From positions 14,266,240 through 14,330,239 of the forward strand of contig NC_049983.1 of the NCBI RefSeq assembly GCF_000003815.2: 64,000 bases of DNA, read 5' to 3'. Of this stretch, positions 3,570-42,633 are shown in pieces. This stretch comes from Branchiostoma floridae (lineage: Eukaryota; Chordata; Leptocardii; Amphioxiformes; Branchiostomatidae). The translations under genes were made by a program, and so were the position numbers. Positions within the stretch are counted from its first letter, which is position 1, and every line of letters starts with the position of its first letter. The notes beneath the pieces are model-generated. The model saw only the letters and a program-made list of their open reading frames with translations, did not search any database and was not told the DNA's origin.

Positions 3570-6500
3570 TCAAAGTTTAGTGTCAAAACTCTGCAGATTT
3601 TCTATAGATAATCCTGAACTTTGGTCCTGAATCGGTATAACCCCGACCTCTGGCGGGACGTTTGCGAATTGATCATCGTCGCTCTGAAAGCCTGTGTTGG
3701 TGATGCCCGTGGCGACGTCACGGGTTCCGTCGCTATGGAGTCTTCCATTTGCCATGCCGTTTGGCTTTCGTGCATCACCATTTTGCAGATTGGTCGCTGT
3801 GTTGTTGTTGCCATGGCGCTGTCGTACAGTGTCGAAGATGTCGAGGACTCTCGACTTGGGCACGATGCCGACGCGGAAAAAGCCGAGGTTGCCTTCGTCA
3901 ATCTTCGTGCAGTTCACGACCGTTGAAGCGACGTTCTCCGGAGATGGCCCATCACACAGTACTCCATCAACCTGTGAGTGAAGACCATAGGGTTATTGAA
4001 TTCTTACGGTTTCATCATAAATCCAGACATAGAGGTCATAGGATTAAGTTAGTATGAAATATGTTCCAAAATGGGAGTTATTGAACCAAAGGAATGCCCT
4101 CCATTGTCTAAAGTTTCTTTGCTGGCTACTTCTTGTCCCTTTGAATAAAACGTAAATCGTCACTACTCATGAGTATCTTGGATGAGCATCTTGGAAAGTG
4201 TGGCACTTACGTTGTCTCCGAGCTTGGCCAGCACCTGTGAGTGGTGTGTGGTGTCCGCCTCCCCGGACGGGTTAGCGGAGGTCACGGCGATGGGTCCCAC
4301 CAGGTCGATCAGGTGGGTGGCGACCGTGCAGTCCGGGATGCGGATGGCGATGCTCTCAGGGGTGCCGATGAAGCGGGCGGAGTCTCCCAGGCCAAACCTG
4401 TCCAGCCACGGACCTGGAGGGTACACATAGTAGTTAGGGTTCAAGAATGTGTGCTGGACGATTAGAAAAGTTTTTGTGATAGACGATATATAACGAAGTT
4501 CAGAAATAAAATGTTAAAAGCACTTATAAAATGATAAATATTGTCCGATAACTACTGCTATGCATCACACCAATATCGGAATGTTGGGAACGAGAAGGTT
4601 TCCATGGCAACGTACCTCTCTTGATAACGAGGCTGATGGAGGACGGCCACACCTCCTTCATGAAGTCCCACAGGAGCGGCCCGAACTCCTCCCTGGCTGG
4701 CTCCAGCTGACTCAACTGGAACAGAAGAGGCCAGGCTTCAGTAATCATTATTTCTTTATGGATTAATCATATATCAACGTTCACTATGAATGGCACACAT
4801 AGAAAGACCTGGAGTTACTGTGTTCACCTGTGAGATCCATATGGACATGGGTCTCTCCTCCGCTTGTTTCTTGGTGCGGTAGGCCCTCTCCACGGCGGCA
4901 GGACGGTTACAGGCCGCCACCAGCACGTACACGGTGTCTGTAGGCATGCCGCAGATCCCGCCGCCTTTCATCAGTTCTGTATGTGACACATAACGGTACG
5001 AGTCATCAGTAAAGGTGCGTATTCATACTGTCATCTGTTTCTCTAAATGTTTCCTCTGAGAATACAAAAGAAGAAGAAATTACTTTATGTAATAGCCTCA
5101 CAATATATAAATGTATCAAAAAGATGAAAAGTCATCAAAAGAAGTAAAGAAAAAACGGTACACTAACCTGAGATTTGTTTGACACCATTTGCCTTCCTGG
5201 CGTCCGCCATGACACACCCCTGTTCCCCACCCCTGCCGCGGTGCCCCCTCCCCAGGCTCAGGAGCGGGCTCCCCAGGGACATCACCTCCTCCCCACACAT
5301 GCCGTTCAGTAGGTGCACACAGAAACAGTACACGCACACCGCGCCAAACACACACATCACTACCAGCTCAAAATATTGACTAGTCTGGACGCCTAGCGCG
5401 TCTAACAGGAACAGCACACAAACCACCTCAAACACCACGGACAGGACCAACCACGCCTTGTTGATCACCACAGACAAGAAGATGACAAACAGGTTAAAGA
5501 GAAGAAAAGATGCGGCTCCTGCCGCCACACCGAGCCCTTCACTGCCTCTATAGACACCAGAGTACCTGACAGACCCCCACAACAGCCACATCATGCTGTA
5601 CACCATGAACGCCGTGCTCTCGAACGTCTTCCCTCGGGAGAAGCTGATGGTTCCCGCCACGAACTGGATGACTCCTGCCGGCACGATCACCCAGGGTAGG
5701 ACCAGAGACTTGTCCCCGGTAGACAACAGCGCCACAGCCAGAGCTGTCACGGCATTGGACAGGAACCCCAGCGTGTCGGCGTTGGCGTACTTGGAGTAGC
5801 CGAGAATAGTGTCATGAGACGATGTCAGGGCTGAGGAGGACGGTGTGTCGCCATCATTACATCGGCAGCGAGAGAACAGCTCCCGCAATGACTTCTCGGG
5901 TAGGAGACTCCTTCCGACTGGGACTATAGCCTTTCTAAAAGCAGAGTTCAGCGATAGAGCAAAGGTGCAGTAAAGGGAAATAGTTAGCATCAAAATACTG
6001 GATACCCCAACGAAGTTACTGTTCAAACCGGTAGTGGGAAGAGAAAGAACAAAAATGGCAAAACAGAGATTGTAGACCACTTCGGCAATGGTCTTGGTGA
6101 AGGACAGAAGGAAGAAGATGAAGAATAGTAGGACAATAACGGACGATGCAAGGATAGGAGGCGCCATCTCAGTCTTGTCCCAAAACTTGCTAGCAAAGCC
6201 ATAGGTCAGACCAAGCCAAAGAGTGGCAGACAGGGAGAAGACGGCCCCGTGGAACACGTCCTCTCGTCTGAAGGACACAACAGAAACCAGTAGCTGGGCA
6301 AGGCCCGCTAGCGCCATCCATGGTGTTGCCGGATGAACGTCATTAATGGCGCCAATAAAGAATAACCCCACAGCGCAGGTAGGCAGCATATTCATGGCGT
6401 AGCCAAAGATTAAGGCGTCGTTTTGGACGATTTGTTCCTCGCCGCCATCTTTACGGCGTTCCTCGCTCAAACCAGGAAAGCTAAAGTCGCTTCCTTTGCG

Positions 6501-7648
6501 GAAAGACACAGACAAGCCGACCACGTAGTACAGACCGAGCAGCACAGGTAATGTCTGGTAGCACGCTGCACCCCACCTGGCGGCAGGATAAAACAGTGCA
6601 ACTATCTCCATTACCATGGAAAAACTGATCAGAAAAGACACCAAACCAGTCAACGTGTGCTGCTTCACACCCGCTATTCCAAGAGAGAGGGTTATGAAGA
6701 GGAAAACAACATAGCCTGGGAACAAGGCGTCTTTGCGGGCATCAGAGGAGATGATGTCCAACCCCTCCAGGATTTTGGCGGACCCCAGGGAGCCCCAGAG
6801 CACCGACAGGCACAGGTACAGGGTGGTCAGGGTTGGGCAGCGGAGATGGAGCAGACGGGCACCTGCAAGGGACGATAGACAACATAAAGACTTAGTGATG
6901 TCTTCCCTACATGTATGAAACAATCAAAGGAATTGGACGTAGCGTTTCGGTATGTAGATACTGAATGTAGTTCTAAGTATAGGGAATATCGTAACTTTAT
7001 ATACATGTAGCTGAGAGACTGATATAAAAAGTACATGGCAAAAACAATGGTAGCTGTTTGTTTTAGAGATCAGGCTGATTATCATTATTATTAATTTTTC
7101 TTCAGAAAAAGTACATTTGTCAAAAACTAAGCTACTAAGACTAGTAGTTTTACAATATACAACTATTGCATGCGGATTTATAAAATGTACTTGTGTCTCC
7201 TATCACATTAGTAAGAGTTCGTCTGTCAAGTACAAGGAAGTTGAAACTAATATTTCTACAATCTGCAACTATTGCACATGGAGTTAGCGTTATACTTATA
7301 GAGTACATGTGTCTCCTATCACATGGGGAATGAGACATTTGACAAGCACAAGGAAGAAACATTACAGATCATGAAGTCTGTTTTTGATTTCTCATTGGAA
7401 AATGTTAGATTACCTTGAACTACATGTCACGTGAGCAAGAACCAGCCAGATTTCTTACCTGCTGAAAACTGCAGCAGGCCCGTGATGACCAGTACAGTCC
7501 CGGTGACGAGGCTGTTCGGCGCCGCTACAGTCAGGTCCAGACTGAAGTTGTGGGCAGCCAACACCAGGCTACCCAGCACCACTCCCGACATGCCCTGCAC
7601 GCGCGGACCCACGGGAAGGGTCGCGACTGTGTCACCTGTCCGCCCCAT
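3570..7648 (-). CDS. Gene A: three AceTr-like membrane domains fused to a YrdC/Sua5 domain
   Basis: Six minus-strand exons: 7648-7459, 6862-5168, 4976-4828, 4715-4616, 4413-4211, 3971-3570. They sum to 2,739 nt, or 912 aa. Residues about 20-600 form three blocks of roughly six hydrophobic segments. Each block has a motif like GPR1/FUN34/SatP transporters, clearest in the third (QFVAG, then SRGKTFESTAF). Residues about 628-820 form a YrdC/Sua5 domain: GMPTDTVYVL, VTSANPSGE and ASTVVNC. In the family this domain makes threonylcarbamoyl-AMP from threonine, bicarbonate and ATP. The KxR motif reads KKQ, and the Gly normally after PTDTVY is Val, so activity may be altered. The C-terminal tail is polar and low in complexity. 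Gene C at 38994 is a close paralogue on the other strand. The YrdC call is firm; the transporter family is a motif-level call. Confidence 0.85.
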
Positions 7649-9122
7649 GATGCTGTCTGTTGAAAATTACAGTCACTACTTCACTTAATCTGATATTCAG
7701 TGTAACACCCCTCTGGTACAATTGTCTACGGAACGCAACGGTGAGATAATTGCCGACAACTTAAGTCTGAGCTTGTAATTACAAAAGAAAACCTGTAATC
7801 TGCACAGTGACTGAAACGTTCAGCCAGTATGCATACATGTAGCACACGTTTGCATTCAAGATAACATCCATCAACTGCATGTGGCATTTCTTCGTTACCA
7901 GAGCCACATAGGCAAATAACATGTATTAAAGAAATACACAATTACATAAAATCATGATTCTAACATGCTTAATTAATCCTTAAACACAAACCCCCTAATA
8001 TTTGACTGTACATGCAACGACTTCAGGACAAACAGAAAAGTATTTTGTGTTTACTCCGGCAAATCTAGACTTAGCCCCCAGCGCAATCGTTCTTTCCTTC
8101 CTCCCGTCGCCACTCTACAACAAAGACAGACGAACTATGTAAAACTTAACGAACTCTCACACAAGGCACGTAGGATTAACTCGATTTCTGAATTATGAAA
8201 ACGAAAAGCTAGAACTTGAGTATCTAGTGTTACTATTTTGCCCTCAACTATACACAGAGAAGGGCAACCCAGCAGGGTGTAGATAAAGCAGCTCGTCGAC
8301 CTTGAGTGACTTGAAAGAGGTTCATATGTATACATTCTGAATACTTCAAATTGCGCCTGAATACTTCAAATTTCTGCAGACTGATCTCAAGTTTGTCGAC
8401 ACAAAATCTTCGTACAGTAACTTAAACCAATGTAACGTTAGACCAACACACCGCGCTATCAGAACTATGGCCATAGCAGGTGCATTCCTTAACTCACGAT
8501 TCATGATACATGTTTTTTTTTGTCATCATGCAGTCGTCCAGTACTATGGAGGATAAACAACTTAGAAGATATATAATATTCAATGTAGTTAAGAATATAT
8601 ACATATCGAAGTTTGCTTACCTATTTTGTTACTCGCAAACTTTTTTTTTTAATGGCCGGCTTTCTTCAGATTCTGTGAGCGCTCTGAACCGCAGGCGCGC
8701 GGAGATCAAAATGTTGTCCGATGACGCTGACTTGTACAGGATGTGGGAAACGTTAAGTATTTATAGGTATTGCTTAACAGAAGGAAGAGGGTACATTCTT
8801 GCTCGTAGCAACGTGAAGGGAGTGCGCCGTTTCACCTGGAGCGGCTCATTTGTAATGGCAAGTACGTCATAAATTTGCATATCGCTTCCCTGACCTTTAA
8901 CCTCGTGTCATCTGTCAAGGAAGTGGATTGTTGGAGAGTCGCAGTTCTTGGAAGTGATATAGAGACGATGTTATTTTTGTCCCTGACAACGGCTGTATCC
9001 GCTAGGGCGGCACTTTAACCTGCCTGGACGTGTCCTTAGAATAGGGAGTTACGTCAGCCCTTTGCAAAAACGTGCGATTGATATCCGGCCGACCCGCCAA
9101 GCACTGGAACTGTACTGTAAAC
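7649..9122. promoter_or_regulatory. Divergent intergenic region between gene A and GLOD5
   Basis: Gene A starts leftward at 7648 and GLOD5 rightward at 9123, so this 1.5-kb interval should hold both promoters. Visible candidate sites near GLOD5 are TACGTCA at 8863-8869 (CRE-like), a perfect octamer ATTTGCAT at 8873-8880, and TTACGTCA at 9049-9056, 67 bp before the GLOD5 ATG. An open frame at 8510-8872 has no recognisable features and I do not call it. Confidence 0.35.
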
Positions 9123-10670
<1,548 letters not shown>

Positions 10671-10861
10671 GTAGCTGGTATCTCGTTACAAAAATTATTG
10701 AGGATCACTTGTATGAAGATATCCAGGTGTTTTAACCATTTGTAAATTTCGTGTTCAATGAACATCGATCACTATTATGACCATGGCTCATGAGTTGTGC
10801 CCGTACCTTGAACATTAGCAGTTGAACTTTGTATCATGTTGTTTGGTTTGTACTACTGTAT

Positions 10862-10867
10862 AATAAA
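10862..10867 (+). terminator. Poly(A) signal of GLOD5
   Basis: AATAAA 192 bp after the GLOD5 stop codon, the first match downstream on this strand. Confidence 0.7.
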
Positions 10868-11851
10868 GCAGTATTCTTGGAAGAAGACTATGTCATGTGA
10901 CTTGCTATCTGTGTACCAAAATGTCATGAGTGCGCGATTGATGGTGTATGTGTGGTGGGGTTAAGACGTGACCTTCACTCGGCAAGTGGTTTCGGATCGA
11001 TTCAGCAGTTCTAGGTCTGACAAGTGGTGAGTTGTTTTTTTCTTCTCAGTACACGCCCAGACTTGCAGTTATTTAATGCGTTAAACAAACGAAATATAGG
11101 CCTGAAGCTTTGAGGTAATGCACGATGTGTATAATGAGTCCCTTCTTGGGTGTTCCTGCCAAGGATCGGCAAGACTGCCGAGGGAGGGTGCCGGGGGTCA
11201 GGGCTTGCCCGTTGTGGCATCAAGTTGGCTATATAGGAGCCTGTATATAGCTATGAACATGTTACTATTGTTAGACTCCATAAACAAACACCTGTTTCAA
11301 AGTAGATTTAATTCTAAACCGTCCGGCTAACTAATATCTTAATACGTGTTCATGTAACTTGTTCAGAAGAGGAGAAAAACATGGCCAGCAAGTGGAATTC
11401 CATTTCTGTATCATTTATTGAATTGAACCTTTGGAATGTTAACCACAAGTAACGTTATAACGTAGCACAGTTGCTTGTGATGTCTCCAAATATCATTCAT
11501 TCAAAGAATTTCACAAGGTCAAGAAATACTTGTCAGTTTGTAGGAATGTACAGTGCTAGATCTGAGTTCTGGCAGATAAATATCAAGATAAATATATTCT
11601 TTTAAATATAGATCTATAAAAGCGATAAGACTTAAAATTCACGAATACCTTTTTCAAGATTACACAGCTTTTCAAACATTCACGTTATCAAAATTAATTA
11701 ACGTAAGAAGTGCACATATTACAATCTATGACTACTGTGTAAACATTTAAGCAGCAAAAGTGAAAGAACAACAACGGGCGGCGTAACAGTTACTGTATCG
11801 ATCGAGGCGATTTAAATTCACCCGGAACTTTGGCTTTTGCTCGAGCTAACT
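10868..11851. other. Convergent intergenic region
   Basis: Lies between the 3' ends of GLOD5 (+) and the PhyH-type gene (-). A minus-strand AATAAA (TTTATT at 11414-11419) about 430 bp past the PhyH stop could serve that gene. No other gene seen. Confidence 0.5.
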
Positions 11852-13906
11852 TTAAGCAGTTTTCTGGAAGAAGGCAGGGGCCTTGTCCTGGAAGAATCCC
11901 TCCTTGTTCTCTCCGCTGACGAGGACAGTGGCGGGGAAGGTGCGGGGCCGGTCCGGGTCGTCTGAAGGGTAGGCGCAGGTCGGGACGTACCGCAGCACGA
12001 AGCCGCACCGCCGCCGGCTGGAGCGGTTCGGCTCGCTGGCGTGTACGGTCAGCCCGTGGTGTAGGGACATCTGCCCCGCCTGGAGTATAGGAAGGAATCC
12101 CGTTACTTGACATGGCCGCATTATCTTAACAGGCAGATTATGATATATTAAAGGCATTCTTTTTGCTTGGAGACCTTTTGTCTGTTACCTGACAAAATAT
12201 AGATACTTTTCATTACACAGTCGAAATTGATATAAGCACAAAAATCGACAAGTACAGTTTTACACGATTTGTAGCTGTATTTCGCTTCTACAATACTACC
12301 AACTACTTCTTTAGTTGTCTTATCTAGTGTGCTGTCTTGAGTGGTAAAGCTACACACCTTGAGAGGACACAGCACTTTGCTAGACTCGTCCACTAGCTCC
12401 GTGGGGATCTCCTGGTTAGAAGTCAGCATGTTCCCCTCCTTCTGTGCACTGCCGTGCTCTTGTAGACCATCTTTGTGGCTTCCTACGAACAAAATAAGCA
12501 AATTAAGAACACCGCGGTTGAAAGGTGGAGAAAAGAAGAATACCGATCATTGTCCTAGTGACTACATCGGCTCTTTTGTATGCTACTGAAGTACTGTGAT
12601 TGAACCATAAATGTACAAGTGGTATATAAATCTGTTACGCGAAAGTTAACTCGTGGCCCTTATTACCTGGTATGAAGTAAACTGCTCCGTTCTCAGCGTC
12701 AGCATCGTCTATAGCCAGCCACACGGACACAACCGGCCCGCCGTCCACTCCCCAGTACCTGCACAGGACACAGAAAACAAAGGCTCCTGTAGCTGTCACA
12801 TGTTAATATGTAAACGTCCTGTGAATGAATCGTCGTTTCTCAGGCGGGGTAACGTGCGTAGTCGAGTGGTTAGCGGCCCTGCCTCTGCTGAACTGGAGGC
12901 CGTGAGTTCGCTTCTGTCTGCGTCGCTCACCTGACATACACGCTACCGGAAAGGGTTGCAGTCCTGTGCTTGTCGGAAAGAGTTAGGTAAATTTTCCCAG
13001 TACAATGAACCTTTAAATACTGTACAAAGCGACTCAGTCTTTTCTGTCACGACCAGTGGAAGGGTAGCACTTCCCTGGGCTAAACTGAATCGATATCACT
13101 TTCACTTTCGGGCAAATTGGGTCCTCAAAGTTTTAAGACGTAAACAAACTTCATCCTTGCTTACCTGACGTCTTGGTGCCATGCTACATACGGCTCGACG
13201 TCCGGTTTCGTCCCGGAGATTTGGCTGACAGGGTACTTGCAGATGAAGCGGGAGTCCAGCAGGAAGACGTTGGGACCCAGGATGTCCCTCAGGACCGCCA
13301 CGACGGTGGGGTGGGCCGCCGCCTGCATGGCGAACTGGTGCTGCATGTGGGCGTTATGCAGGGAGTACTGGGCATTCTCCTTACCTGTAAGGTAATGGGT
13401 TGACTTTAGAAAACGCTGCTACAAAAAAGTCAAAATGGATTTATGCGTCTTTACCCTGTAAGGTCTACGTCACATTGCTTACCTACCCGGGGCCCGACCG
13501 GGCTGTTTGCGGAAACGAAAAATTAAAGTTTATGCCAATAAATATACACAAGGCATGCTGTTGAATTACTTTTGGTCCGTTTTTTGTTTTTGTTGTCCTT
13601 CATATAGTACTTTTCATTCCCCAAAATTGCCCGACTGGGCTCCTTTGTGCCTTATGGAGACCTTTTGTATTCAATACAGAGAAGGTCTTTGCTTTAAACT
13701 ACATGTACGTAGTAATTTCATTGTAAGACTAGAAAACATGCATGACAAAACGAGTAGAACAGAATCGTGCACCCACCGATCTTGCTCTCGAGGTCGTCGA
13801 AGTTCCTCCTGAGCGCCGCCAAGTCCTCCCCCTCCAGCACGGTCACACCGGGAAGGTACCCGTTCTTCTCGAAGAACTCTCCGTAGTCTGTTTTTGTCTC
13901 AGGCAT
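11852..13906 (-). CDS. Phytanoyl-CoA dioxygenase (PhyH) family protein
   Basis: Five minus-strand exons: 13906-13777, 13384-13165, 12758-12667, 12482-12358 and 12079-11852. They sum to 795 nt, or 264 aa. This is a non-haem Fe(II)/2-oxoglutarate oxygenase of the PhyH family. The first iron motif HxD appears as WHQDV around residue 112. The region WLAIDDADAENGAVYFIPGS is the family signature strand pair. The distal His falls in HHGLTVHASEPN, and the following RRRCGF supplies an Arg suited to binding 2-oxoglutarate. The start is the Met opening MPETKTDYGEFFEKNGYL, a normal PhyH N-terminus. The sequence looks closer to the broad PhyH family found in bacteria and invertebrates than to vertebrate PHYH or PHYHD1, so I give no symbol. 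The substrate is unknown. A tRNA-like SINE fragment sits in the intron at 12.85 kb. Confidence 0.88.
12845..12940 (+). mobile_element. tRNA-derived SINE fragment
   Basis: Contains an A-box-like TAGTCGAGTGGTTAGCGG followed about 40 bp later by a decayed B box (GTGAGTTCGCTTC), the layout of a tRNA-derived SINE head. It lies in an intron of the PhyH-type gene. No intact acceptor stem, so not a functional tRNA. Confidence 0.5.
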
Positions 13907-15230
13907 TTTGGTTGATGTGTTCTGTTCTGCGCCAAGGACGTGTATGACTTTAAATAAAGACGATAGCGTGGCTGTGTCAGCAGTCTGTTATAGAATAGTC
14001 GTATCAGGAAGTTTCGGTCGTATTTAAACGATTTTAGGGGATATTTGTGACGCGAGGAAGTGATATGAGCTCTGGTCACATGAGAGAGTAACTTGGACAT
14101 GACAAATGACTATTTTTAGACATGGGGTGCCGACATGCCCTCGACTACGTACACGGAAATGCCCCAAACCCAGTAAGTAATGGGTTTCCCTGGCGAAGCG
14201 CGTGGTTCTGTGGTGGCATGTTTACGAATGATGCAATGGTTTCGATCACTTGCACAATCTATCCTCATCTCGCCCCCTTATATTTCCCTACAGAAAGTCA
14301 GCAGTTGATATTTGTTGCGATATCATTTTATGAAAGACTAGTGCGCAGCAAACACAAGAGAATAGTAACGAAAGTAAAGTTGAGTTGATTTGAAAGATGA
14401 CTATTTCCATTACCCTATCTACATGTACTATGTTTGATATTGGTATAAATAGATTGCTTAACTGTCCGTGTGCTAATTTTCAATAAGAGGAAATATCATT
14501 GACGTAAGAAAAACACCTGCAATGGGACGCTTCCTTACTTAAGGAGGTTCTTTTTCCAAGTAAAGGGAATGTGATTGACGTAAGAAAACACCTGTGACGT
14601 TTCCTTTCCTTTTCTTAGTGTCTTTGCGACACATCGTGCATCATTTTGTATGGGCTATTAACTTCCCATTGTAGACCTTAGGATGTAGCATGATTGCATG
14701 TGTAACAAGTTGTAACATGCACAGTTCGGGTGTGGCACTGGGATTTCTTCTTTGTCAGTGAGCTCACCATAATTTCGACTACATATTCTTCACGATTCCC
14801 CACCATACAGAAAACATGAGCAGGTCATCTTAATGTCAAAATAAAGGACATTTTACTATCCAACTATACGGAAACTGCGTTTATACCTATTGTGGCAGTT
14901 CTCAACCTCCCTGTATGTTCCACTTGCAGTATTTTTGATCGAAAAAAATACGAACGAAAATTCTCACCATTGATTCTGCACAAAATTGCGATGCCTAGCA
15001 TCATATTGCCATTGCAGTTAGCCCTAAACGAAAAGAAAGTTCATTCTAATTTTCATGCAAACTTTCGTCTTGTACGGTTTATATGAATTGGGTGTGTGGC
15101 ATGGTCACTATCAAACTGAACTCGAGTAACCCCTTTTTTGCTGCACCAAACTTCTACATGACAAGGCTATGCATGAACACGTGCGCATGCACAGAGTAGG
15201 CGGGTGTCGTTTACGCCTATGTCCGTCATT
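13907..15230. other. Intergenic, no gene seen
   Basis: Upstream flank of the PhyH-type gene followed by AT-rich DNA. Segments near 14.48-14.62 kb (GACGTAAGAAAA...CACCTG...TTTCC) occur twice and resemble pieces of the repeats further right. No supported exon. Confidence 0.4.
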
Positions 15231-29311: not shown

Positions 29312-31885
29312 GGGGACGGACAGCGCCCCGCCCGGCCGGCCAGCGGGCGTCCATCTCTGCTGGAGTGTTCTGGTCCCGTCCGAAGCAGCGGTGAACCCCC
29401 GGCTGCCCGTCAGCTGTGACAAATTCAAGTGCAAGACCAATCATTAGAACCACTGGGGTACGTAAGAACATTTCATATACATTTCGCGACAAGTATAACA
29501 AAATTTCCTGACAATTTTTTGGAAACAAAAACGTGTAACTGAATAAAGTAGAGTAAAAAAACTCTTGCCTTATATCCAAGAGTACCTGTCCTAAGATTCA
29601 GAAGCCTGGCCATTGTTCTAATACAGTGTTCAAAAGTTAATGAAACTAGCGACACAGATATCTAAAGCGCTTTGAAAAAAAAGACATGAAAATCTAGTTT
29701 TATATGGCAGAACACTACGGTCATTGCTATATTTAGGAGCAACTTCTACTGTCAGAAATTTTCCACTAACCGTAATACGCGTTACCATGGTTACTAAAAC
29801 AATGTGACACCATCTACTGAAATACTCCCTGTGACCGTAAGGGGTGGTAATTGTATCTTTCTACGCATGCGCCATTAGATGGTAGGGGTACACGAGAGCG
29901 TTTGTGATTGGTGCATTTCAGTCACCGATATGTAATGATTGGTGCGTGTCAAAGTTGTGTTGCTACAATTAGTTACAGGGCATACCGAGAACCTAACCTA
30001 TGTAATTAGTCATTGCTTGTTAGGGCAAGCCTTTTTTTCCTTTCCGTCGATATCTCAGTTTCACAAGGCCGCTAACAGAGTGCGATTCGTCCTAAAGTCG
30101 ATATGATTACAGACGGATATTTATTCTATCCTACTTACTTAAAAAACAGTGCCTTATTTCACAACCTCTATGGAGATTACCGATAGTCCACGCAACATAA
30201 CAAATAAACTCCAGACTTCCGTCTGAAACTGAAACTATCTCTCATAAGCCGCTGTCGAGAACTCAGCTGATCGAAACCTTGAACCTTTTCTGATTGTGTC
30301 CGTCGTGAGTAAATTGTCACATGTTTCTTACGTCGGGGCTTTTCATATACGTGCCAGGACCTGTTTCATTTTATATACAAGATTACAACAGGCCACTTAA
30401 GGATGCTACAACTTACAAGAATTTCTTCAATACGTAAAAATATCGAATGTTACTGCTGCCATCCCAACATATCTAATATTTGCGTGAACTTTCCATATCC
30501 TTCTTTGTCAAAGCTCTGGACAGAATTTTACACTTTGCTTGACTAGATTATTGCTGAGAACCTTCAAGGTCGGATGCGTACAATCAAGTCGCGAGCTAAC
30601 ATTTCTTATTGTCAGACATTTCCTCATACGTCACAGGCGATGAAGAAAGGGTCTAAAATAGATAGAGGTAAACGGAAGGAAGGAACTAAAGACGAATGGA
30701 CATCTCAAGGTGTAACCATGATGTCACCTGTCTCCTTTGAAATCCAACCGGACTGTACGTCAGAAGGAAGGACAATAAGAAGACTCACTTTTTCCCCAGA
30801 AAGTGATTAAAAATTGCGTCACAAGGAGCGACGTTTGTGCGTGACGATAAATAGGCTCACATATTTCCCAGAAAAATGTTACACATGCACACACGCGCGT
30901 CACAAGGACTGACGTGCGTGCTGACAACAAGAAGACTCACTTTTCGTACACAGACATACACATACATTCGCCAATGTCAAGTTGTGCGCACTAGGTGACT
31001 TAGTGTTTAACTGACCACATCTGAAAATTTCACCTAATTGCTTACATTCACTATATATGGTATTGTACCTCTGTACTTGCAAAAAGACTGCATTTTGATT
31101 AACAAAGGAACTCAGTCTTCTCGTTAATGACAAGGAAACAAATGATTTAATCACTGAACTTTCATCCTCTACGAATGTGGGTTTCCCCCTCATCATATCA
31201 CCTGTCCCATGACCAAGGATATGCCCATTCTTCACCCGGAAATATCACATGTCTGCCCTCCTATAATCAGATGTCACCAGGGGATAAACCCAAACTTAGC
31301 TCAGTACGGCGTCTCCATGACTACATGACATCACTTCTAATTCTGGTCGGGCGGAAACAAAACCCCCCACACCCGGCTATGTCATAGTTTCACCCGTCAC
31401 ATTCTAAGTTAGACTCGAAGCGCGTTGCCTCCTTACAAGTAGTAAGATATTCTCACAGAAAGCGAGTACTGCAAATCGCCTGGAGGTCAACTATAGACGA
31501 GAAAGAAGACACCTGTTGAACTGAACTGTACAGGTAGGTTACAAATATTCAGTGTCCATGTAATGTAAGATGCAATGTCGTGTTCTAGATCTATGTTTTT
31601 TACTGATACCGGTTTACCTACCGGGCATGTTCAACCGCTCAATTCTGACACTGGTCAAGAAATAGTAAATTTTCCGGTTGAAAACTTTTTTTTTTTAATT
31701 TTGTGACGTGACGTTTGAAGGGTTAGTAAAGAAAAGCACAGTACATTTGTTGTCGACTGACCGTTTCGTTTTCATTTAGTGTTTGGTTTTTAGGTGTTTA
31801 CTTAAAAATCAGGGGTCACAAATAACTCATGTCCCTCATAGCAGTACCGACTTGATGTATTGTGTTTCCTCCGTAGCCAGTTGCG
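29312..31885. other. Upstream flank of ACOD1 and of gene B
   Basis: Divergent promoters of ACOD1 (-) and gene B (+) should lie here. Visible are a GTTACCATGGTTAC element at 29781-29794, degenerate CRE-containing repeats at 30.75-30.95 kb, and AT-rich DNA. No supported exon other than the possible ACOD1 5' exon near 29.6 kb. Confidence 0.45.
30748..30945 (+). repeat. Three degenerate repeats with ACGTCA-like sites
   Basis: Three related units at about 30748-30797, 30818-30860 and 30899-30945. Each has GTCACAAGGA- or ACGTCAGAAGGA-like starts and ends in an (A)GACTCAC or GGCTCAC element after an ACAA(T/C)AAG tract. Diverged, no reading frame. Confidence 0.5.
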
Positions 31886-34800
31886 ATGGGTTGGGAAGAG
31901 AAAGAGTTCGCGGCGGTGTTCTACAGCGAGCCGGGGGTGTTGGGCTTCCTGGCGAACGTACTGTCCGCCTTCCTCGCGGCGGTGGGGAACATGATAGAGC
32001 CCGCCGAGCAACCCGTGGTCGGCACGGTCATCACAGGTCAGTCGCCATACACTTTTGTTTGCATACTGTCACAGTTGACAATACAATATGGACTTAGCCA
32101 TGGAGTTTGTAGACTTAGCTATAACGTTAGTGTAATACAGTATCGAAACAAAACCAATTCATTACAGTAGCTTGTGTGACGTGTACGGGCTTGTGTTTGT
32201 CAAAGGGAAATCACCGTTTCTCATGAATGCTAAGTACAAGTAATCGTATAAATTCAAGTATCTGGCTGCTATGTGTGCTTCATTTTTACAGTATTATGGC
32301 ATTTTCTGCTAAGTATAGCTCTATAGAATAACAATTTTCTGTACAGCTCCATTTAGCCCCTAAATTGCCTAACGAAATGACATTCGCTTGACGTCATTCC
32401 GTCCTTTTGTATGTCGAAATTCCACGCAAAGAGGCATATCCAATAGAGATTCTGGTGCGTGAACGCTCTTTATGCATTGTTCATTGTCAACCGTTGCCAA
32501 TAGTTGCCCCATGCTGTGCCCTTGCAGGCGTACACCTGATAGTTATCGGCGGGTTTGTCCAGCTGGTTGCCGGCCTGCTCAGCTTCCGTAAGTACGACCA
32601 CCTGGCCGCCACCGCCTTCGTCACCTTCGCTGCCCTGTGGAGCAGCATGGGGGTTTTGAGGATCCTGGGAGCCACTTCTTTTGCTGCTTCGTCCGCGACC
32701 GTCGTAAACGCAACAGACGCCCCCGTCGTAAACGCAACAGACGCCACCGTCGTGAACGCAACAGCCGCCACCGTCATAAACGACGCAACCCTCCCGGGCC
32801 TCGTCTCCTACGCATGTGTGGCCGTAGTGTTATCCGTGACGTCAGCAACCACCAACTACGTCATGCCACCAGTCGCCCTCACCGCAGCCATATTGCTTTC
32901 CTTTGAAACCGTGGGGTTGTATCACATCTGGGGCAAGAAAGTAGCTTTCGCTTTAGAAGTCGTTTTGGTCCTTATAGCTCTCTATGGCGCTACAGCATTA
33001 CTGTTGAAGGGGGTTTTCCAGCGATGGGTTATTCCGGGTTTCGGTAACGCACCTTTCAATGTGTTACTGTTTGGCACAAAGGCCGGCACATCAAAAAGCA
33101 AATCAAAAGAAGAAGAGAAAAAGAAGAATACAAAATACGCCGAGCCCATGGGACTAGGTTATCTCAGTAACGTTCCCGTAGCCGCTATCTTTGCTTTCCA
33201 CTACCTCGGGTTTACTGAGTCTTTTCCCGCCGCCACACCGTGGGTTGGTCTCGCTTTGGTTTCACTCATCATCGCCTCTTACTACTCCTTCTTACGGAAC
33301 GACGCTTTTCACTGCATCATGTTCGGTACTCAGGCTACGTTCTGGCTATGCCAGGCCGCGGGGTTGGTCGCCTACAGTCTGACAGGTGAGCATGATCTTC
33401 GGTCTCCTCTTCTAGGCACGTGGGCATTCCTGCCTACATTCGCACTTCTTGTCCTGGTCTCACTCACCAAGGACAAAGTGACACTAGTCAACAACTTCGT
33501 CTTCGCTTTACTCTCCGTGGCTTGGTTCTCTGTGATCCCCCTAGCGGGAGCTAAGTACGCTGTAGGCGGCTTGTGTACCGCTCTGTCCGTCCTCTCTCTC
33601 TACTCTTCCTTCGCAAACCTCATCAACTCCGTCGCGGAGAAGCCCATCATGTGGGTTGGCTCCAAGTTCGTCGCCATGACAACTCTCAGGGAAGGTTTTC
33701 AGAGGTTTAGATGTTGCCGACCAGCCCGTGAGATCAGCACTGACAAGGACGCAGACGGCATGTGTAGGGAGGACAGTGCTGACACCTTAGCTTTTCTCAG
33801 CAATGCTGTCGCGGCGTGGGCAGCACTATCCGGCAATGTTGTCCACAGCGCTGCCGTCCACATGGCCTGGATTGTCGGAGCTGGGATTCTGGTACAGCTG
33901 CTGTCTGCCTTGCTGTCACTTAAGGTCAAGAAGACCGCAAAGCCAGCCGGGATGGTGTACATAGCAAGCGCCTTGATGTGGGGAGTCTGGACTCTAGTGC
34001 GTCACTCAGGTAGGGCACGATATTGGTTCTGTAGCTTTCTAATTTTCTGTCATTTGCATTGTCTATTGCTGATTTTAGATACATGAAGTCTTTTCGAATG
34101 GATAGCAAACTTTTTTGTTTTGTTTTTTTATAACTTTTAATTCATTTCGATTTCAGGATATATCTTCCAAAACACCTCGCTGGGCCACCACCAAGACAGC
34201 CTACTAGTCGGAGTCATCGTCCTGATGGTCATCAACCTGGGCAGCATGGTGTCCTCATGTTTTGTCAGCAAGGTAAAGACGCTTTGCAGTGGTTTAGTCT
34301 TTCATTATTCCAAGATTATGGAATTGTCATGGATAATAACACCACCATGTATAGAGAATACACGTTACACTTGAACTAGTATCTGATGGTAATATGCGTT
34401 ATTAGTAATTACACCTGTCATACTGACATGTCATTCACAAACTGTTTCCCCTAGATCTGGTTAGTGACCACAGTTCTGATGGAGGTTGTACAGGTCTGCC
34501 TGCTGCTCTTCACGCTGGACAAGCTGCCCTCCCATCTAGCGGAGGCGTTCCTGGGCCTGCTCGGGGTGGTGTGCCTGTACGGGGCGGGGACGGCGCTCCT
34601 GGCGGCCGTGTTAGGGGTGGACGTCTTACCGGGCCGGGGTCCCATCTGGCAGGTGAGTCTTTAGCACCTAGGTATTAAGTCTTGGAGTCCTTTGAGGAAT
34701 GATACATTGATTGTTATCGGTGCAATGGATAACTTATCTTAAATGACAGATGAATGATGAAAAGATGGGACTTGCTTGGGGTAAGGAGAGGAAAAGGTAG

Positions 34801-36884
34801 GAAGAAAAGAGGAAGGAACGGAAAGAAGATGGGAAGAGAGGAAGAATGCGACAGGATTTGAAAGAGAGGGATTTCATTCCGACAGTTCATATAATTACAA
34901 CTTCACTGCCTACGCGAATGCCAATGTTGATATGCCACCTTCCATACATACAGGTAAACACTGACACAGAGGAGGAGTCCAGTTCAGGCCAGCTGACCAT
35001 CCCCACGCCTTCCTCCAAGAAGACCAGCGGACTGCGGACCATCGCGGATCTCCTGGACGCTGGCGGGGTGTGCGGCATCCCCACCGACACTGTGTACGCC
35101 CTGGCCGCCTCCTGTAAACACCCAGAGGCCATCAAACGCATCTACCACATCAAGGTGAGATTATACTAGTACCCTTCGCCAAAGGCGTTTCATCTCAAAC
35201 GTAGGGAAATGTGAGGCGTATATTCGCAACGGTGGTCCCAGCCTTCATCCATAATTATACCTTTTTCTTTCTGAACCATAATGTTGGCTTATATATACAC
35301 CTTTGGTTGTGCATGTTCCCTCCTCGGAACTATATAACGTTATACATATAAGATGCCATTATATGTATATTCCATCATCACAAGAATACATGCCTCTTTC
35401 TTTCTGTACGCCTCGTACATACAAAATGTATGAAGTGATGTACCCAAAGAATGCGAAGTTTAAACGCTATACTAACACGAGTTGCTCCTCCCCACCCAGA
35501 GTCGCCCGGCCGAGAAGCCGATCTGTGTGTGTATCTCCCACCTGGGCCAGCTGGAGGCGGCACAGCCAGGCTTCAGCCCGCTGTTGTGGGACTTCATGCG
35601 CCGCTGTTACCCCGGCGGCATCAGCTGTGTCGTGCCCAAGGGCGACTGGCTCGCGAACCTCGGTAAGTTAAACCTCTTGTATGCCAATGGCTACAGGATG
35701 TCAATCGTTTTAAAACACAATCATTTCTTTATCTAAATGTTAGTGGTTACAAATAATATCCATATGATTCTGCACGTGCACAGGACTGGGTGATGCTGTG
35801 AGCTACATCGGCACAAGTGACAGTATCTGCATCCGGGTACCTGACAGCACGGCCACCGCCCATCTGGTGTCCATGACAGGTGGGTACAGAAATGGGAGAG
35901 AGAAGAGCTGGCATTGGACGAAATATCTATGGGCAGGGTATAGAGTGAAAATACATGGGAGATGGCTTACATGCTTGGTATGAGTGCAAAGTTAAAGTGA
36001 CACTTGTTACCTCCATGAAAAATAGAGGCATATTGTTCTGGATGTGTCTGTGTGTGCGGCTGCCTGTGTGTTTGTGTTTCTGGATATTTTTGTGGTCAGC
36101 ATAACTGAACAAAAGCTGTTGTTGTCATATCACTACAGGCTGGAATTGTGGCTTTGTTTTAAATTTTGTGGTCTGACAATACCCACAGGACCCCTGGGCA
36201 TCACGTCAGCTAACCCTAGTGGGGAGCCTGACTCCACCCATCACGACATGGTCCTGTCCTCCCTGGGAGACAAGATAGACGGCATGCTGTGTGACGGTCC
36301 CTCCAACGAGCTGGTCGCGTCCACCGTCGTCAACTGCATGAAGATAGACGAAGGTAGGCGTCAAACGATGCAAAATCAATGTGTTAGAGGCTTTCTTGTC
36401 ATGAGGGCATCTTGTGATTTTTATGACTTCCCCTTTTTACGGTTTAGAGAAGCCAAAGCACTTCGGTCACAGAGTGACGAGGTTAACGAAGTTGAGAAAA
36501 ACATCTACGCAATGGAGTTCCCCGTCGGGTATGATTCATTGTCACAGGGGTTGTGATGAATCAATCCATGTATATCGCTGACATTGTCAATTGTATCCAC
36601 AGTTATACCATATCTTATCATCTACTTCCTTCAAGGCATCTGCATCATCGAAACTTTGCTAAGTCTCCAGTCTCTAGCTAATGGCGCTTATATGATTTCT
36701 GTCTTAACCGACTGTTAAACTTTGAACTGTTCTGATTGTTATGTTTTCCCATCCCGTTCCAGTCGGCATCTCGTTCTTCAGGGTGGGGTGTACTCCTCAG
36801 GAAAGGGTGGAGCAGCTCTTCGCACAGGCTAAGGAAGCAGTCGGCCAGAATGCACAGTTGGAAGCCTCCATCAACTCCATTTAG
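31886..36884 (+). CDS. Gene B: AceTr-like membrane domains fused to a YrdC/Sua5 domain (KxR intact)
   Basis: Nine exons: 31886-32036, 32528-34009, 34157-34272, 34455-34652, 34954-35154, 35500-35662, 35784-35879, 36189-36353 and 36763-36884. They sum to 2,694 nt, or 897 aa. The N-terminal 650 residues hold three groups of hydrophobic segments. The first has the transporter-like motif GGFVQLVAGLLSFRKYDHL; the later ones are weaker (FLRNDAFH, LVQLLSALLSL). Residues about 680-880 are a YrdC/Sua5 domain with GIPTDTVYAL, IKSRPAEKP (the KxR motif), ITSANPSGE and ASTVVNC. B therefore keeps more of the family's nucleotide-binding residues than A and C. It has no long C-terminal tail and ends soon after FFRVGCTPQERVEQLF. 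A four-unit, 24-bp coding repeat near residue 108 gives three N-A-T sequons. B lies between A and C; its introns do not match theirs. Confidence 0.87.
32701..32790 (+). repeat. 24-bp coding minisatellite in gene B
   Basis: Units at 32701, 32725, 32749 and a shortened one at 32773 encode the octapeptide VVNATDAP with small changes. Three N-A-T sequons result, in a loop between hydrophobic segments, so the loop may be glycosylated if it faces outside. Confidence 0.9.
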
Positions 36885-38993
36885 AACACGCCTGGAGATG
36901 AAGACCCGTTGTGTTAACTATTCATAAACATATTTATCAGTTCAGGTTATCATCTGTAGAGAGGTGACACCGCGCTTTCCACAAAGTCCTGTCCAGCGTG
37001 ACAGAGCGAAGCTCTTCCACCTGAACATGATTTTAAAGAAGCCAAAACCAACTTGTATAGATGTAGCCAACACTTGTATTGGGCAGTCTTTGTCACGATG
37101 ATATCAATTACTGCCCCTTTGTCTCATGTATCTTCTACGTTTCTGCCATGCATTTGTAAGTCTCGTTCGGGCATGAAATTCAAATTATACATGTGTCAAA
37201 TCGTTTCATAAATACGTGACTAATTATGTTCAGTTGTTTGATGGTTTAATAGAAAAGCCGTACACGTAATTCCTAGCTATAGGGTCACAAGTTTTATTGA
37301 CAAATGTCGTCTGGAGTTAATAATTGCTGTATTGGTGTTTAAGATGATTGTCAGATTGATTGTAATGATTGGTAAAAAGTTGTAGATCGAGATTTTTAAA
37401 TAATTCCATACATCACCTCATGTTAGAACACTGACATTTAATGTTATGTTTGATAGACAATAATGAAATTATTTATTCACATCATTGCAAGTTACCTGTT
37501 GCAATGAACGTCTTGCTGCAACCTTGTTGATTTTTCATTATGTCATAATAAAATAAAGTATATTACGTTTGAAATTATGTGATACTTGTTCTTATTTAGT
37601 TTGTTGCTGTTGATGCATAATTGACAGAGAGCGTTACTTGTCGACGAGCGATGTTTAAAATTATAATGAAGTGGAACTCATTGCCGAGGGGCCGGAATAC
37701 AGTGTGCACAGATAGATATAGATACAGGTGCACAAGGATAATACCGGAAAAGTACATCTAATATATATATAGTCAGAACTAAACACACACAAAAGCGTAT
37801 TGATTCATAAAGCTGGTGATCGCCAAGAAATCTAGGCGGCATATTGGACACCATATCTATTATCCGTTTATATCCAAAATGATATTAATATACTCAAATC
37901 TTTAGTGCCTCTATTCAAGTATGCACAAAGAGCGTCACATGGTCGCCCCTACAGCACAAACATAGAATTGCTGTAGCTCTACACCCCCTCCCCCTCACTG
38001 GTCAGTCCCTTTTTATCTAGCAAGTCTTAACATTTAGCTGTCTGGTAGAGATAGCGTTTGTGTAGGTTTGCCTTGGGACATTGCAAACGGCGGACTACAA
38101 GTAACAAATCATTCTTAGTTTATTTGCATTGCCCTCAAATATCTCGTGATTTTCTCCTGACTATTGGGTAATACGTAAAACGCCAGTTAATCTTACTCCC
38201 CCAAAGTTTCACTTCCCCTTTCACGTTTCTGAGAAGGCCTCGAAAAAGTGAAACGGCCTCACTTGGCTCCCAGTCAACAGCTGTGTGTTTCTGTATGCAG
38301 GGCATGTTTGGTTTCAGTCACAAGATGCTGAAACATCAATTAAGTTAGGAAACGATCATTGGACTTCCCCGTCGGTTATGATTTTGTGTCACGTTGTTTG
38401 GCTTCATAACACAGCCGGACCTATCTGCGGTATTGTGTCCTTCAACCAAGACCTACGCCCGACGTGTGTTCGACGTCTTGATAGATAGGGTGACCTCGTC
38501 TTCAAGGTGAGTCAAATTTAATGGCATAAAACCTAGAATGAATTCTCCATTTCCTTGTTCAAGTCACTGAAAAGGCTGGCGACAACAAGCGGGAACACGC
38601 CTATGAATTTCTAAACCATTACTGTAATGGATAAAGAACTGTGATTGTCACTTTGAAAACTTCTACCTGCAGCTGAATACTAGTACTTTTCCTATACTGA
38701 TGTCCACGTGGACATATATAAATTTCAACGTTTCCAGCATATGCATGCTTTTCTAATTGAAATGAATCCCTACTTCACTTTTAACTTGTTGTTAGGTCCA
38801 GGGAACATGTCAGCTTTGGCTGCCACTTCGAATTCTGGACACTGCCGCACTTTTATTCAATAAATCAATAAAGCATTCATAATTGAAACTGGGCTTAATA
38901 TTCCCTGTTTGAAGAATGCCCATATCATGATTATATAGAAAGACTGTATACGTTATAAAGATCCTGATGTTCTGTACATATCGTGTATGACAG
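36885..38993. other. 3' flank of gene B and upstream flank of gene C
   Basis: Overlapping AATAAA signals at 37547-37552 and 37552-37557 probably end gene B, giving a 3' untranslated region of about 0.7 kb. The remaining 1.4 kb has no exon I can support and should include the gene C promoter. Confidence 0.5.
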
Positions 38994-41900
38994 ATGCCTC
39001 CTCGGAACAACGACAAGGTGACAACCCCTCTCGTGGGTCCGCGCGTGCAGGGCATGTCGGGAGTGGTGCTGGGTAGCCTGGTGTTGGCCGCCCACAACTT
39101 CAGTCTGGACCTGACTGTAGCGGCGCCAAACAGCCTCGTCACCGGGACTGTACTGGTCATCACGGGCCTGCTACAGTTTTCAGCAGGTAAGAAATATGTG
39201 TGGTTCTTGCTCATACGTGCATTTGAAGACAAAAACTTATCATACACCTGTCAATACAAACTCCAGCGTGATTTCACATCCGCAGTGGCCGTGTACGGTG
39301 TATTCTATGAATGGAAATATGACATTATTAAAATTTCAAAGGTTTTATCAAACGCTTAAAAATATCCATCAATCACATATCAATGTTTTACTTTATTTGC
39401 ATCTGTGCCTTTGCAGGTATCCGTCTGCTCCGTGGGCGTTATCACACCCTGACCACCCTGTACCTGTCCCTGTCGGTGCTCTGGGGGTCCTTGGGGTCCG
39501 CCAAAATCCTGGAGGGGTTGGACGTCCTATCCTTGGACAACCGCAAAGACGGCCTTCTCCCTGGTTATGGGGTCTTTCTGTTCCTCACCCTTTTTCTTGG
39601 GATCGCGGGTAAGAAAGAGAGGAGTAGCATTGTCAGTTGGATCTGTTTTCTGCTTAGTTTGTCCATGGTGATGGAGATTGTAGCCTTGTTCTATCCAGCA
39701 GGAAGATGGGGCACAGCCTGCTACCAGGCACTGCCTGTGCTGCTGGGTCTTTACTACGTCGTTGGTTTGACAGTGTCACACTGCACAGGTAACGGTGTGA
39801 GTCTGCCTGGTATGAGAGAGGAAAGTCAAGAGACAGACGAAGATGAGGATGTCGTCAAGAATGACGTTTTGGCGTTTGCATACGCTATGAATATGATTCC
39901 TACCTGTATATTAGCGCTCCTCTTCATAGGCGTTACTCGTACCACCAATCAGGCAGCGCCGTGGATGGCGCTAGCGGGCCTTGCCCAGCTATTGGTTTCT
40001 GTTCTGTCCTTCAGACGAGAGGACGTGTTCCATGGAGCAGTGTTTTCCTTGTCTAGCACATTCTGGCTGGGAATAACATATGGTTTTCTCAGTACGCTTT
40101 GGGGGAAGGCGGAATTGGCGCCTCCTTTCCTAGCTTCCTCCATTCTCGTTCTCATCTTCCTTGTATTCTTCCTTCTGTCCTTCACCCAAACCATCTCTGA
40201 TGTTGTGTACAACTTCTGTTTTGCCCTTTTGGTCCTTTCACTTCCCACTACAGGCTTGAACAGTACCTACTTAGGTATCGCCAGTATTTTGCTATTATTG
40301 ATCTCCATTTACTGTACCTTTGCTTTGACGTTGAACTCTGCGTTCCGGAGAACCCTTGTTCCCGTCGGGAGGAGCCTTCTACCTGAGGAATCGTTGCGTG
40401 GGCTCTTCTCTCGCTGCCAATGTGCTAGACGTCGACAGGGCTATGAGAGCCTGCCATCCGGATCAACCAGTGCTGGTCTTTCTGGTTCTGATACTATTCT
40501 CGGCTACTCCAAGTACGCCAGCGCTGACACGCTGGGGTTCCTGTCCAATGCCGTGACAGCTCTGGCTGTGGCGCTGTTGTCTACCGGGGACAAGTCTCTG
40601 GTCCTCCCCTGGGTGATCGTACCAGGAGGAGTCATCCAGTTCGTGGCGGGAACCATCAGCTTCTCCCGCGGGAAGACGTTCGAGAGCACGGCGTTCATGG
40701 TGTACAGCATGATGTGGCTGTTGTGGGGGTCTGTCAGGTACTCTGGTGTCTATAGAGGCAGTGAAGGGCTCGGTGTGGCGGCAGGAGCCGCATCTTTCCT
40801 TCTCTTTAACCTGTTTGTCATCTTCTTGTCTGTGGTGATCAACAAGGCGTGGTTGGTCCTGTCCGTGGTGTTTGAGGTGGTTTGTGTGCTGTTCCTGTTA
40901 GACGCGCTAGGTGTCCAGACTAGTCAATATTTTGAGCTCGGGGTGATGTGTGTGTTTGGCGCGGTGTGCGTGTACTGTTTCTGTGTGCACCTACTGAACG
41001 GCATGTGTGGGGAGGAGGTGATGTCCCTGGGGAGCCCGCTCCTGAGCCTGGGGAGGGGGCACCGCGGCAGGGGTGGGGAACAGGGGTGTGTCATGGCAGA
41101 CGCCAGGAAGGCGAATGGTGTCAAACAAATCGCAGGTTAGTGCATCGTTTCTAATATGTCTAATATTTATCTTTATGATACCTTTATATATTGTGAGGCT
41201 AAGTTATTGCTTCTTTTGCATTCTCAAAGGAAACATGTTGAGAGAGAATGACAGTATGAATACACATCTTAACTGATGACTCGTACCGTTATGTGTGTCC
41301 CATACAGAACTGATGAAAGCCGGCGGGATCTGTGGCATGCCTACAGACACCGTGTACGTGCTGGTGGCGGCCTGTAACCGTCCTGCCGCTGTGGAGAGGG
41401 CCTACCGCACCAAGAAACAAGCGGAGGAGAGACCCATGTCCATATGGATCTCACAGGTGATCACAGTAACTCCTGGTCTTTCTACATATACCATGCATAA
41501 GTGAACGTTGATATATGATTGATCAATGAGAAATATTAATTACTAAAGTTTGACGTCTTCTGTTCCAGTTGAGTCAGCTGGAGCCAGCCAGGGAGGAGTT
41601 CGGGCCGCTCCTGTGGGACTTCATGAAGGAGGTGTGGCCGTCCTCCATCAGCCTCGTTATCAAGAGAGGTACGTTGCCATGGAAACTTTCTCGTTCCCAA
41701 CGTTTCGTGGTTTTTGGACAATGCAGATCATTTTAAACTGCTAATGCGTTTCTTAACTTCCCTGTTTCTTTTTCAAATCGTTCAGGACACTTTGCCTACC
41801 GTTGTGGGTACTTGTTCTTGAAACCTAAGTACTATGTGCACCTTCCAGGACCGTGGCTGGACAGGTTTGGCCTGGGAGACTCCGCCCACTACATCGGCAC

Positions 41901-42633
41901 CCCTGAGAGCATCGCCATCCGCATCCCGGACTGCACGGTCGCCACCCACCTGATCGACCTGGTGGGACCCATCGCCGTGACCTCCGCTAACCCGTCCGGG
42001 GAGGCAGACACCACGCACCACTCACAGGTGCTGGCCAAGCTAGGAGACAACGTAAGTGCAGGGAAATTGATATCTGCAACTTTTCTTTCTTCATTGCAAA
42101 CTTTGAGTTTAGGTTCGAGTGACGAATGTAGTTGATTACGTGTAGAGTAAGACAAATGGAAGCATAAATTTTCCTGAAAGCCTCATTGTGTTATATGTCA
42201 TTTCATTATCATTAACCCGTAGGTGGACGGAGTACTGTGTGATGGCCCATCGCCCGAGAACGTCGCCTCCACCGTCGTGAACTGTGCGAAGATTGACGAG
42301 GGTGAGCTCGGCTTCTTTCGGGTTGGCATCGTGCCCAGGGCGCAGGTTATCGGCATCTTCGACTCCGTCCGTCGGCGTCACGGCAGAAGCAGTTCGGCGG
42401 GCAGACGTAACGACAGCGCCCCGCGCCGTCACTACGGATCCACCAACGCGGCGCGAACCGGCCACGTCGTCCGGGGCGTTGCGTCAGGCCTGGCGGGAAT
42501 CCTACAAGTACATGCCCAGGAGGACGACACGGACATCGGCGCTTCACCACAGGTCGCGGTCGTCAGTGGTGCTGATGACACGGCTAACTCTCTAGCTTTC
42601 TCCACAACCAATCTACTGGACTTAAAATCTTAA
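38994..42633 (+). CDS. Gene C: three AceTr-like membrane domains fused to a YrdC/Sua5 domain
   Basis: Six exons: 38994-39186, 39417-41135, 41308-41456, 41569-41668, 41849-42051 and 42223-42633. They sum to 2,775 nt, or 924 aa. Exon number, boundaries and phases are those of gene A; orientation is opposite. Membrane blocks lie at about 20-195, 215-390 and 430-600. The third carries QFVAG, then SRGKTFESTAF, the best match to GPR1/FUN34/SatP transporters. The YrdC/Sua5 domain at about 640-835 has GMPTDTVYVL, VTSANPSGE and ASTVVNC, but KKQ in place of KxR, as in A. A basic, polar tail of about 90 residues follows. The stretch encoded by 40500-41135 is nearly identical to gene A, whereas the first two blocks differ by roughly a quarter of residues. 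A poly(A) signal lies at 42862. Confidence 0.87.

Follow-up and report, generated by a model that had tools for sequence, protein, structure and literature searches.

A lancelet gene cluster joining triplicated AceTr-like membrane blocks to a YrdC domain, with ACOD1 as a neighbour

Three fusion genes and their AceTr-like blocks

We analysed a window of 64,000 nucleotides from the lancelet Branchiostoma floridae, located on contig C5 of a genome of 513,431,437 bases in 431 contigs that was itself searched. The window includes three genes, here called A, B and C, each of which appears to encode three tandem membrane blocks related to the AceTr family, of which E. coli SatP is a member, followed by a YrdC/Sua5 domain. 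The splice models, built from the DNA, are as follows.

Gene A, 7648-3570, minus strand: coding exons 7648-7459, 6862-5168, 4976-4828, 4715-4616, 4413-4211 and 3971-3570; 912 amino acids; three AceTr blocks, YrdC and a divergent C-terminal tail (splice model)
Gene B, 31886-36884, plus strand: coding exons 31886-32036, 32528-34009, 34157-34272, 34455-34652, 34954-35154, 35500-35662, 35784-35879, 36189-36353 and 36763-36884; 897 amino acids; three AceTr blocks and YrdC (splice model)
Gene C, 38994-42633, plus strand: coding exons 38994-39186, 39417-41135, 41308-41456, 41569-41668, 41849-42051 and 42223-42633; 924 amino acids; three AceTr blocks, YrdC and a C-terminal tail (splice model)

In these models the coding sequence of A and of C is divided into six exons and that of B into nine, all introns are bounded by GT-AG, and the frames are open throughout. 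Gene A is inverted with respect to C and shares all of its modelled intron phases, and positions 3570 and 42633 are the stop-codon ends of A and C. An earlier interpretation made without database searches (the sequence-only reading) had proposed that each gene yields a single in-frame spliced message; this was borne out by the GT-AG, stop-free models of 912, 897 and 924 residues, and both junctions that it had singled out, 41135/41308 in C and 34652/34954 in B, are in frame. That each locus instead holds two separate genes, joined artificially by the chaining of exons, appears very improbable, since the GT-AG junctions are in frame in three of three genes, since block 3, the linker and most of YrdC form one continuous stretch of high likeness between A and C, and since vertebrate fusions with the same domain order are in print (PMC13316224). 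Splice sites, reading frame, the substitution ratios given below and these published fusions together support the predicted single-chain fusion in A, B and C.

Profile searches with PF01184 and PF01300 had been named as a check in the sequence-only reading. Against PF01184, for which the curated cut-off is 25 bits, exon 2 scored 31.9 bits in A and 29.3 bits in C, over the cut-off, and 24.3 bits in B, under it; block 1 of B alone reached 26.3 bits. Among blocks scored singly against Pfam, block 1 of C gave no match, blocks 2 and 3 of B gave no PF01184 match, and block 2 of C reached 8 bits against PF01184. A 28-row AceTr profile, composed of E. coli SatP and bacterial loci, gave 13.8, 38.0 and 44.0 bits for blocks 1, 2 and 3 of C, 9.1, 31.1 and 43.1 bits for those of A, and 33.0, 30.4 and 2.9 bits for those of B, plus an overlapping fragment of 10.5 bits, and hhalign gave 1e-9, 4.6e-11 and 6.6e-6 for blocks 1-3. 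As a control for chance, every block was compared with its own reversal and with 200 shuffles of itself; eight of the nine outscored the best shuffle, the exception being block 3 of B (-0.1 versus 6.8), which is assigned only through its likeness to block 3 of C (36% identity). Compared with one another, blocks 1 and 3 matched with an E-value of 1.4e-6 and blocks 2 and 3 with 1.4e-4 (probability 53%), and blocks 1 and 2 with only 0.031. By phmmer, block 3 of C matched the SatP structures 5YS3 (3.6e-5, residues 2-156 of 168) and 5ZUG (1.5e-4) over most of its length, and the C-terminal end of block 2 of C carries an AceTr-like signature, NSAFRRTLVPVG, where SatP has NEQFGRTVLPIG. On the evidence of PF01184 and the AceTr profile, the triplicated AceTr-like architecture proposed earlier holds, with three tandem blocks per gene, block 3 of B being the weakest.

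39854..40372, plus strand: AceTr block 2 of gene C, amino acids 211-383, ending in the AceTr-like C-terminal signature NSAFRRTLVPVG
40502..41005, plus strand: AceTr block 3 of gene C, amino acids 427-594, with Asn where SatP has the pore residue Phe17
32698..32790, plus strand: block 1 loop of gene B, carrying three near-repeated N-A-T sequons that are candidate N-glycosylation sites (protein sequence and alignment)

The last of these features is met by a gap in A and C in the alignment. Three such sequons fit a loop that faces outside, which suggests an extracellular or lumenal position for this part of block 1 in B.

Signature and constriction residues of AceTr proteins have changed in these blocks. 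The NPAPLGL signature is degenerate in all six of the nine blocks that could be placed, where its equivalents are SADTLGF, NADTLGF, EPGVLGF, EPMGLGY and, twice, PRVQGM, with Gly alone common to all six. The pore Phe, present in 24 of the 28 rows of the AceTr profile, is found by hmmalign in none of the six placed blocks (Asn in four and Val in two, with the remaining three of nine blocks not placed). In a MAFFT alignment of seven blocks the F17 position is Asn in six, and phmmer likewise pairs the pore Phe of SatP with Asn in block 3 of C. The FLY constriction is not kept either: Tyr is present in three of nine blocks (block 3 of A, of C and, with unreliable placement, of B) and Leu in four of nine. 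All blocks in the seven-block alignment retain the Trp of the SYGFW motif. In yeast Ato1, Phe98Ala and Leu219Ala are reported to open the constriction and to let succinate in (PMC13316224). We infer that the constriction in A, B and C is probably more polar and wider, and would be suited to dicarboxylates.

The YrdC domain and the history of the cluster

Segments of 206 amino acids from C and B matched PF01300 over the cut-off (4.2e-34 and 118 bits in C, 3.9e-35 and 121.4 bits in B; residues 8-179, profile positions 2-168 of 178 in both). This near-whole domain match upholds the C-terminal YrdC/Sua5 domain of the sequence-only reading, and the top PDB matches of this part are threonylcarbamoyl-AMP synthases.

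41117..42366, plus strand: YrdC domain of gene C, amino acids 632-837, spliced across exons 2-6 (PF01300; Sua5/TsaC structures)
41412..41420, plus strand: Lys-Lys-Gln codons at the KxR site of the catalytic tetrad in gene C, with the same residues in A (YrdC alignment)

The core residues of YrdC have been given as K56xR58, S143xN145, T33, S181 and R195 (PMC10321239). We aligned the lancelet domains with the best 80 of 175 bacterial relatives, with E. coli TsaC, YciO and HypF, and with the canonical YRDC of the same genome. The bacterial relatives were found through patterns around PTDT, and their extraction also demanded a PTDT-like motif, so that the conservation of T33 among them follows from the selection; no pattern included the KxR Arg or the PGP Gly. 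Gene B keeps seven of seven core residues. Genes A and C keep six: Gln stands in for the Arg of KxR, a residue that all 80 bacterial rows, canonical YRDC, TsaC and HypF have and for which YciO has Leu. Both genes also carry Ser where all 80 bacterial rows have the Gly of PGP. All three genes have STVVN in place of STVVD (Asp in 68 and Asn in 3 of the 80 bacterial rows), and all three have TSAN, in which the Thr before SxN is of the short TsaC type and not the Pro of Sua5 (PMC10321239). The domain of B is 54% identical to that of C and 27% identical to canonical YRDC. An enzymatic role would suit B better than A and C, because the catalytic Arg is gone from the latter two.

Copy numbers across the genome are lower bounds. 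Protein searches of the whole 513-Mb genome with exon 2 of C and of B detected no AceTr genes beyond A, B and C, and a genome search with PF01184 recovered A and C and missed B. The corresponding search with PF01300 found A, B, C and one place on contig C9 only, where the exons read as a separate canonical YRDC gene, so that housekeeping synthesis of N6-threonylcarbamoyladenosine (t6A) need not rely on A, B or C. In a tree of 87 YrdC sequences (three fusion, one canonical, three from E. coli and 80 bacterial), the fusion domains grouped in a separate clade (100/100) whose placement the tree does not resolve, and canonical YRDC lay elsewhere on a long branch; because of the long branches and the biased sampling, no conclusion is drawn on the origin of the module. 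Intron positions within YrdC, compared by eye, include none common to B and A/C, nor any shared with the identified exons of canonical YRDC.

The relationship between A and C varies along their length. Synonymous differences per site amount to 0.56 in block 2, 0.07 in block 3 and 0.17 in YrdC, and the ratio of nonsynonymous to synonymous rates (dN/dS) is below 1 throughout (0.27, 0.18 and 0.11 in blocks 1, 2 and 3, and 0.15 in YrdC). Exons 3-5 are 97-100% identical and introns 2-5 are 46-85% identical over ungapped columns. The homogenised stretch spans about 40,497-42,051 in C and about 5801-4211 in A, covering block 3 and most of YrdC and mainly exons; smaller ones lie in exon 1 and near codons 241-270. 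By these sequence comparisons, A and C are old duplicates that were later homogenised. The homogenisation is seemingly limited to exons, as repeated short gene conversion or constraint on silent sites might produce. Comparisons with B are near or at synonymous saturation; between C and B, dN/dS is 0.30 for YrdC at a synonymous divergence of 1.36, and 0.84 for the linker.

The ACOD1 neighbourhood and possible functions

A gene for cis-aconitate decarboxylase, the itaconate synthase ACOD1, lies between A and B and is arranged head-to-head with B, the start codons being 2,574 bases apart in a model in which the ACOD1 start is not settled.

29311-26288, minus strand: ACOD1 (cis-aconitate decarboxylase), exons 29311-29263, 29101-28911, 28648-28347, 28133-28018, 27469-27258, 27034-26892 and 26729-26288; 484 amino acids, start codon not settled

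The spliced frame is open for all 484 residues, and the identity is supported by phmmer matches to PDB 7BR9 (2.6e-128, query residues 9-404 of 404) and 6R6T (3.4e-128). No second copy was detected genome-wide, either by PF03972 or by a search with the ACOD1 protein, and so 39 kb holds the only detected itaconate-synthase gene together with the only detected AceTr genes. Itaconate is methylene-succinate. SatP, an AceTr member, transports succinate (PMC7419537). Taken with the adjacency of ACOD1, these relationships make transport or sensing of itaconate a natural hypothesis. Among the matches listed in a literature search on ACOD1 and itaconate, no mention of amphioxus or Branchiostoma was found.

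The function that we favour, to which we assign not quite an even chance, is that of a dicarboxylate-type channel or carrier with a cytosolic, nucleotide-binding YrdC domain; we infer its topology, transport, substrate class, ligand binding and coupling from sequence. Each of A, B and C would be a single chain with three AceTr-fold blocks in a row and a TsaC-type YrdC domain in the cytosol, and two protomers could build the six-block ring known from SatP, as has been proposed in print for a fish homologue. The membrane part would form a pore or a proton-coupled carrier for a small carboxylate exceeding acetate in size or polarity, a C4-C5 dicarboxylate; the reason is that the pore-narrowing Phe has given way, mostly to Asn. 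At the inner mouth, YrdC would bind ATP and a carboxylate- or carbamate-type ligand; with its complete core, that of B might activate the incoming substrate, and those of A and C, having lost the Arg of the tetrad, might sense the substrate and set transport. The cluster thus carries a built-in comparison of the enzyme and sensor readings, B with a complete core versus A and C without the Arg. Of the small-carboxylate membrane protein envisaged in the sequence-only reading, the gene count, the three AceTr-like blocks and YrdC stand, and carboxylate handling may well hold; the part that fails is the supposed lack of precedent.

A more specific form, an animal itaconate gene cluster in which the AceTr-YrdC proteins would serve as channels or carriers for itaconate, controlled by the ATP-binding YrdC domain or coupled to it, and would be co-regulated with ACOD1, we consider unlikely. 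If true, non-mammalian chordates would have in this family a dedicated exporter or importer of itaconate, and YrdC would have a role beyond tRNA modification, as a sensor or acyl-adenylating module. The linkage also provides a first, directly testable substrate hypothesis for a fusion whose 2026 description assigned it no function.

Several observations weigh against the dicarboxylate channel or carrier and its itaconate form. The capacity for transport may itself be lost, because NPAPLGL is degenerate and the pore Phe is gone. A hydropathy scan counted 16 membrane peaks in A, 16 in B and 15 in C (omitting one peak each in A and C that falls inside YrdC), compared with 18 expected for three six-helix blocks. 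AlphaFold2, run on three sequences, the peptides encoded by exon 2 of C, A and B, gave a mean predicted local distance difference test score (pLDDT) of 36.2 and a predicted template modelling score (pTM) of 0.29, and the model was not used. With both the KxR Arg and the PGP Gly absent from A and C, a single enzymatic role for all three proteins is unlikely. In their C-terminal tails, A and C agree at only 26% of residues, and constraint is not apparent there. The ACOD1 link, finally, was seen post hoc: the chance of finding one given gene in 39 kb of 513 Mb is about 8e-5, but ACOD1 was not named beforehand, and the chance that a few neighbouring genes include some carboxylate enzyme is, by our own estimate, perhaps 5-10%.

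Other functions can be set against these same data. In one, the proteins would be membrane-anchored threonylcarbamoyl-AMP synthases whose AceTr blocks are a dead scaffold that places YrdC at the membrane, in keeping with the seven of seven equivalents of K56xR58, S143xN145, T33, S181 and R195 in B and with NPAPLGL being degenerate in six of six placed blocks. We nevertheless rate this as improbable: A and C lack R58, the genome already has a canonical YRDC, and a mere anchor would hardly keep three blocks at a dN/dS of 0.11-0.27 between A and C. Closer to the idea put forward in the sequence-only reading is a bicarbonate or CO2/pH sensor, in which YrdC would bind bicarbonate and ATP and gate an anion or proton pathway; threonine, bicarbonate and ATP are the substrates of Sua5 (PMC3695523). 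The lost catalytic Arg of A and C would fit sensing without turnover, but none of the identified neighbour genes in the window points to bicarbonate, and we give this sensor a similarly low probability.

An ammonium or proton pathway was once suggested for some fungal Ato proteins. Such a pathway would accord here with the change of Phe to Asn, which turns the constriction polar, and with a possibly pore-facing Glu that block 3 of A and C has in its fifth helix (FEVV) and that is seen by eye also in block 1 and in B. It is quite unlikely in our estimation, since the AceTr members named in the available text of PMC13316224 and PMC7419537 carry carboxylates.

Other features of the window were also recorded. 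Rfam (at the gathering threshold) and tRNA scans of the window gave no match. Between A and ACOD1 lie dispersed repeats that are 78-95% alike (16751-17387/22909-23553, 18512-18716/22477-22274 and 18096-18514/24094-24481), perhaps the remains of mobile elements, and a short tandem repeat at about 10195-10330 can be read as a CLSV repeat in an open frame. Three further neighbours were identified.

45243-45515, plus strand: exon of a phosphatidylethanolamine-binding protein gene (PF01161, 8.4e-9)
52846-53259, plus strand: exon of a ring-hydroxylating alpha subunit (PF00848, 1.6e-18), perhaps choline monooxygenase-like
56928-57752, minus strand: Tctex-1 family gene (PF03645, 2.3e-24)

Relation to known systems

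The sequence-only reading knew of no described system with this architecture, a statement overtaken by the report of Ghasemi et al. (iScience, 22 June 2026, PMC13316224), the only paper that a literature search found to contain two or more of the four Pfam names and accessions of AceTr and YrdC. According to the available text of that report, hmmsearch finds AceTr proteins to be widespread in Bilateria; vertebrate ATOs occur in every major lineage except mammals and, with close invertebrate homologues, are about 900 amino acids long; and almost all vertebrate ATO sequences have a C-terminal Sua5/YciO/YrdC domain, which a protostome clade lacks. An AlphaFold model of a vertebrate ATO has three blocks, for which the authors propose a dimer forming a six-domain ring, and they state that the function of the ATO-Sua5 fusion needs investigation (PMC13316224). 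Like A, B and C, vertebrate ATO-Sua5 proteins such as A0A3B3D9A3 of Oryzias melastigma consist of three tandem Gpr1/Fun34/YaaH domains and a C-terminal Sua5/YciO/YrdC domain in about 900 amino acids (PMC13316224). By architecture A, B and C belong to this family, a likeness of published description rather than of compared sequences. The main text of PMC13316224 contains no mention of amphioxus, lancelet, cephalochordate or Branchiostoma, and in its available text we found no account of a lost KxR Arg, a pore Asn or an ACOD1 neighbour as seen in the lancelet genes. What is new here is therefore the divergence of residues between paralogues, the changed pore residue, the linkage to ACOD1 and the homogenisation of A and C, the architecture itself having already been published.

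With SatP and the AceTr family (E. coli SatP; 5YS3, 5ZUG), the lancelet proteins share the six-helix block by sequence, the conserved Gly and Trp and, in block 2 of A and C, the C-terminal signature. In contrast, bacterial SatP has one block per chain, assembles as a hexamer and carries no YrdC domain, and A, B and C do not preserve its NPAPLGL motif or its pore Phe. With TsaC/YrdC they share a whole-domain profile match, the TsaC-type Thr and, in B, the complete set of core residues, but here the domain is fused to membrane blocks, the KxR Arg and PGP Gly are gone in A and C, and STVVN is present in all three. HypF and TobZ, multidomain enzymes of carbamoyl transfer with YrdC-like domains, provide a precedent for joining YrdC to a partner by which its product is used or channelled, although the partner described for them is a Kae1-like transferase (PMC9654439), as opposed to the putative transporter of the lancelet genes.

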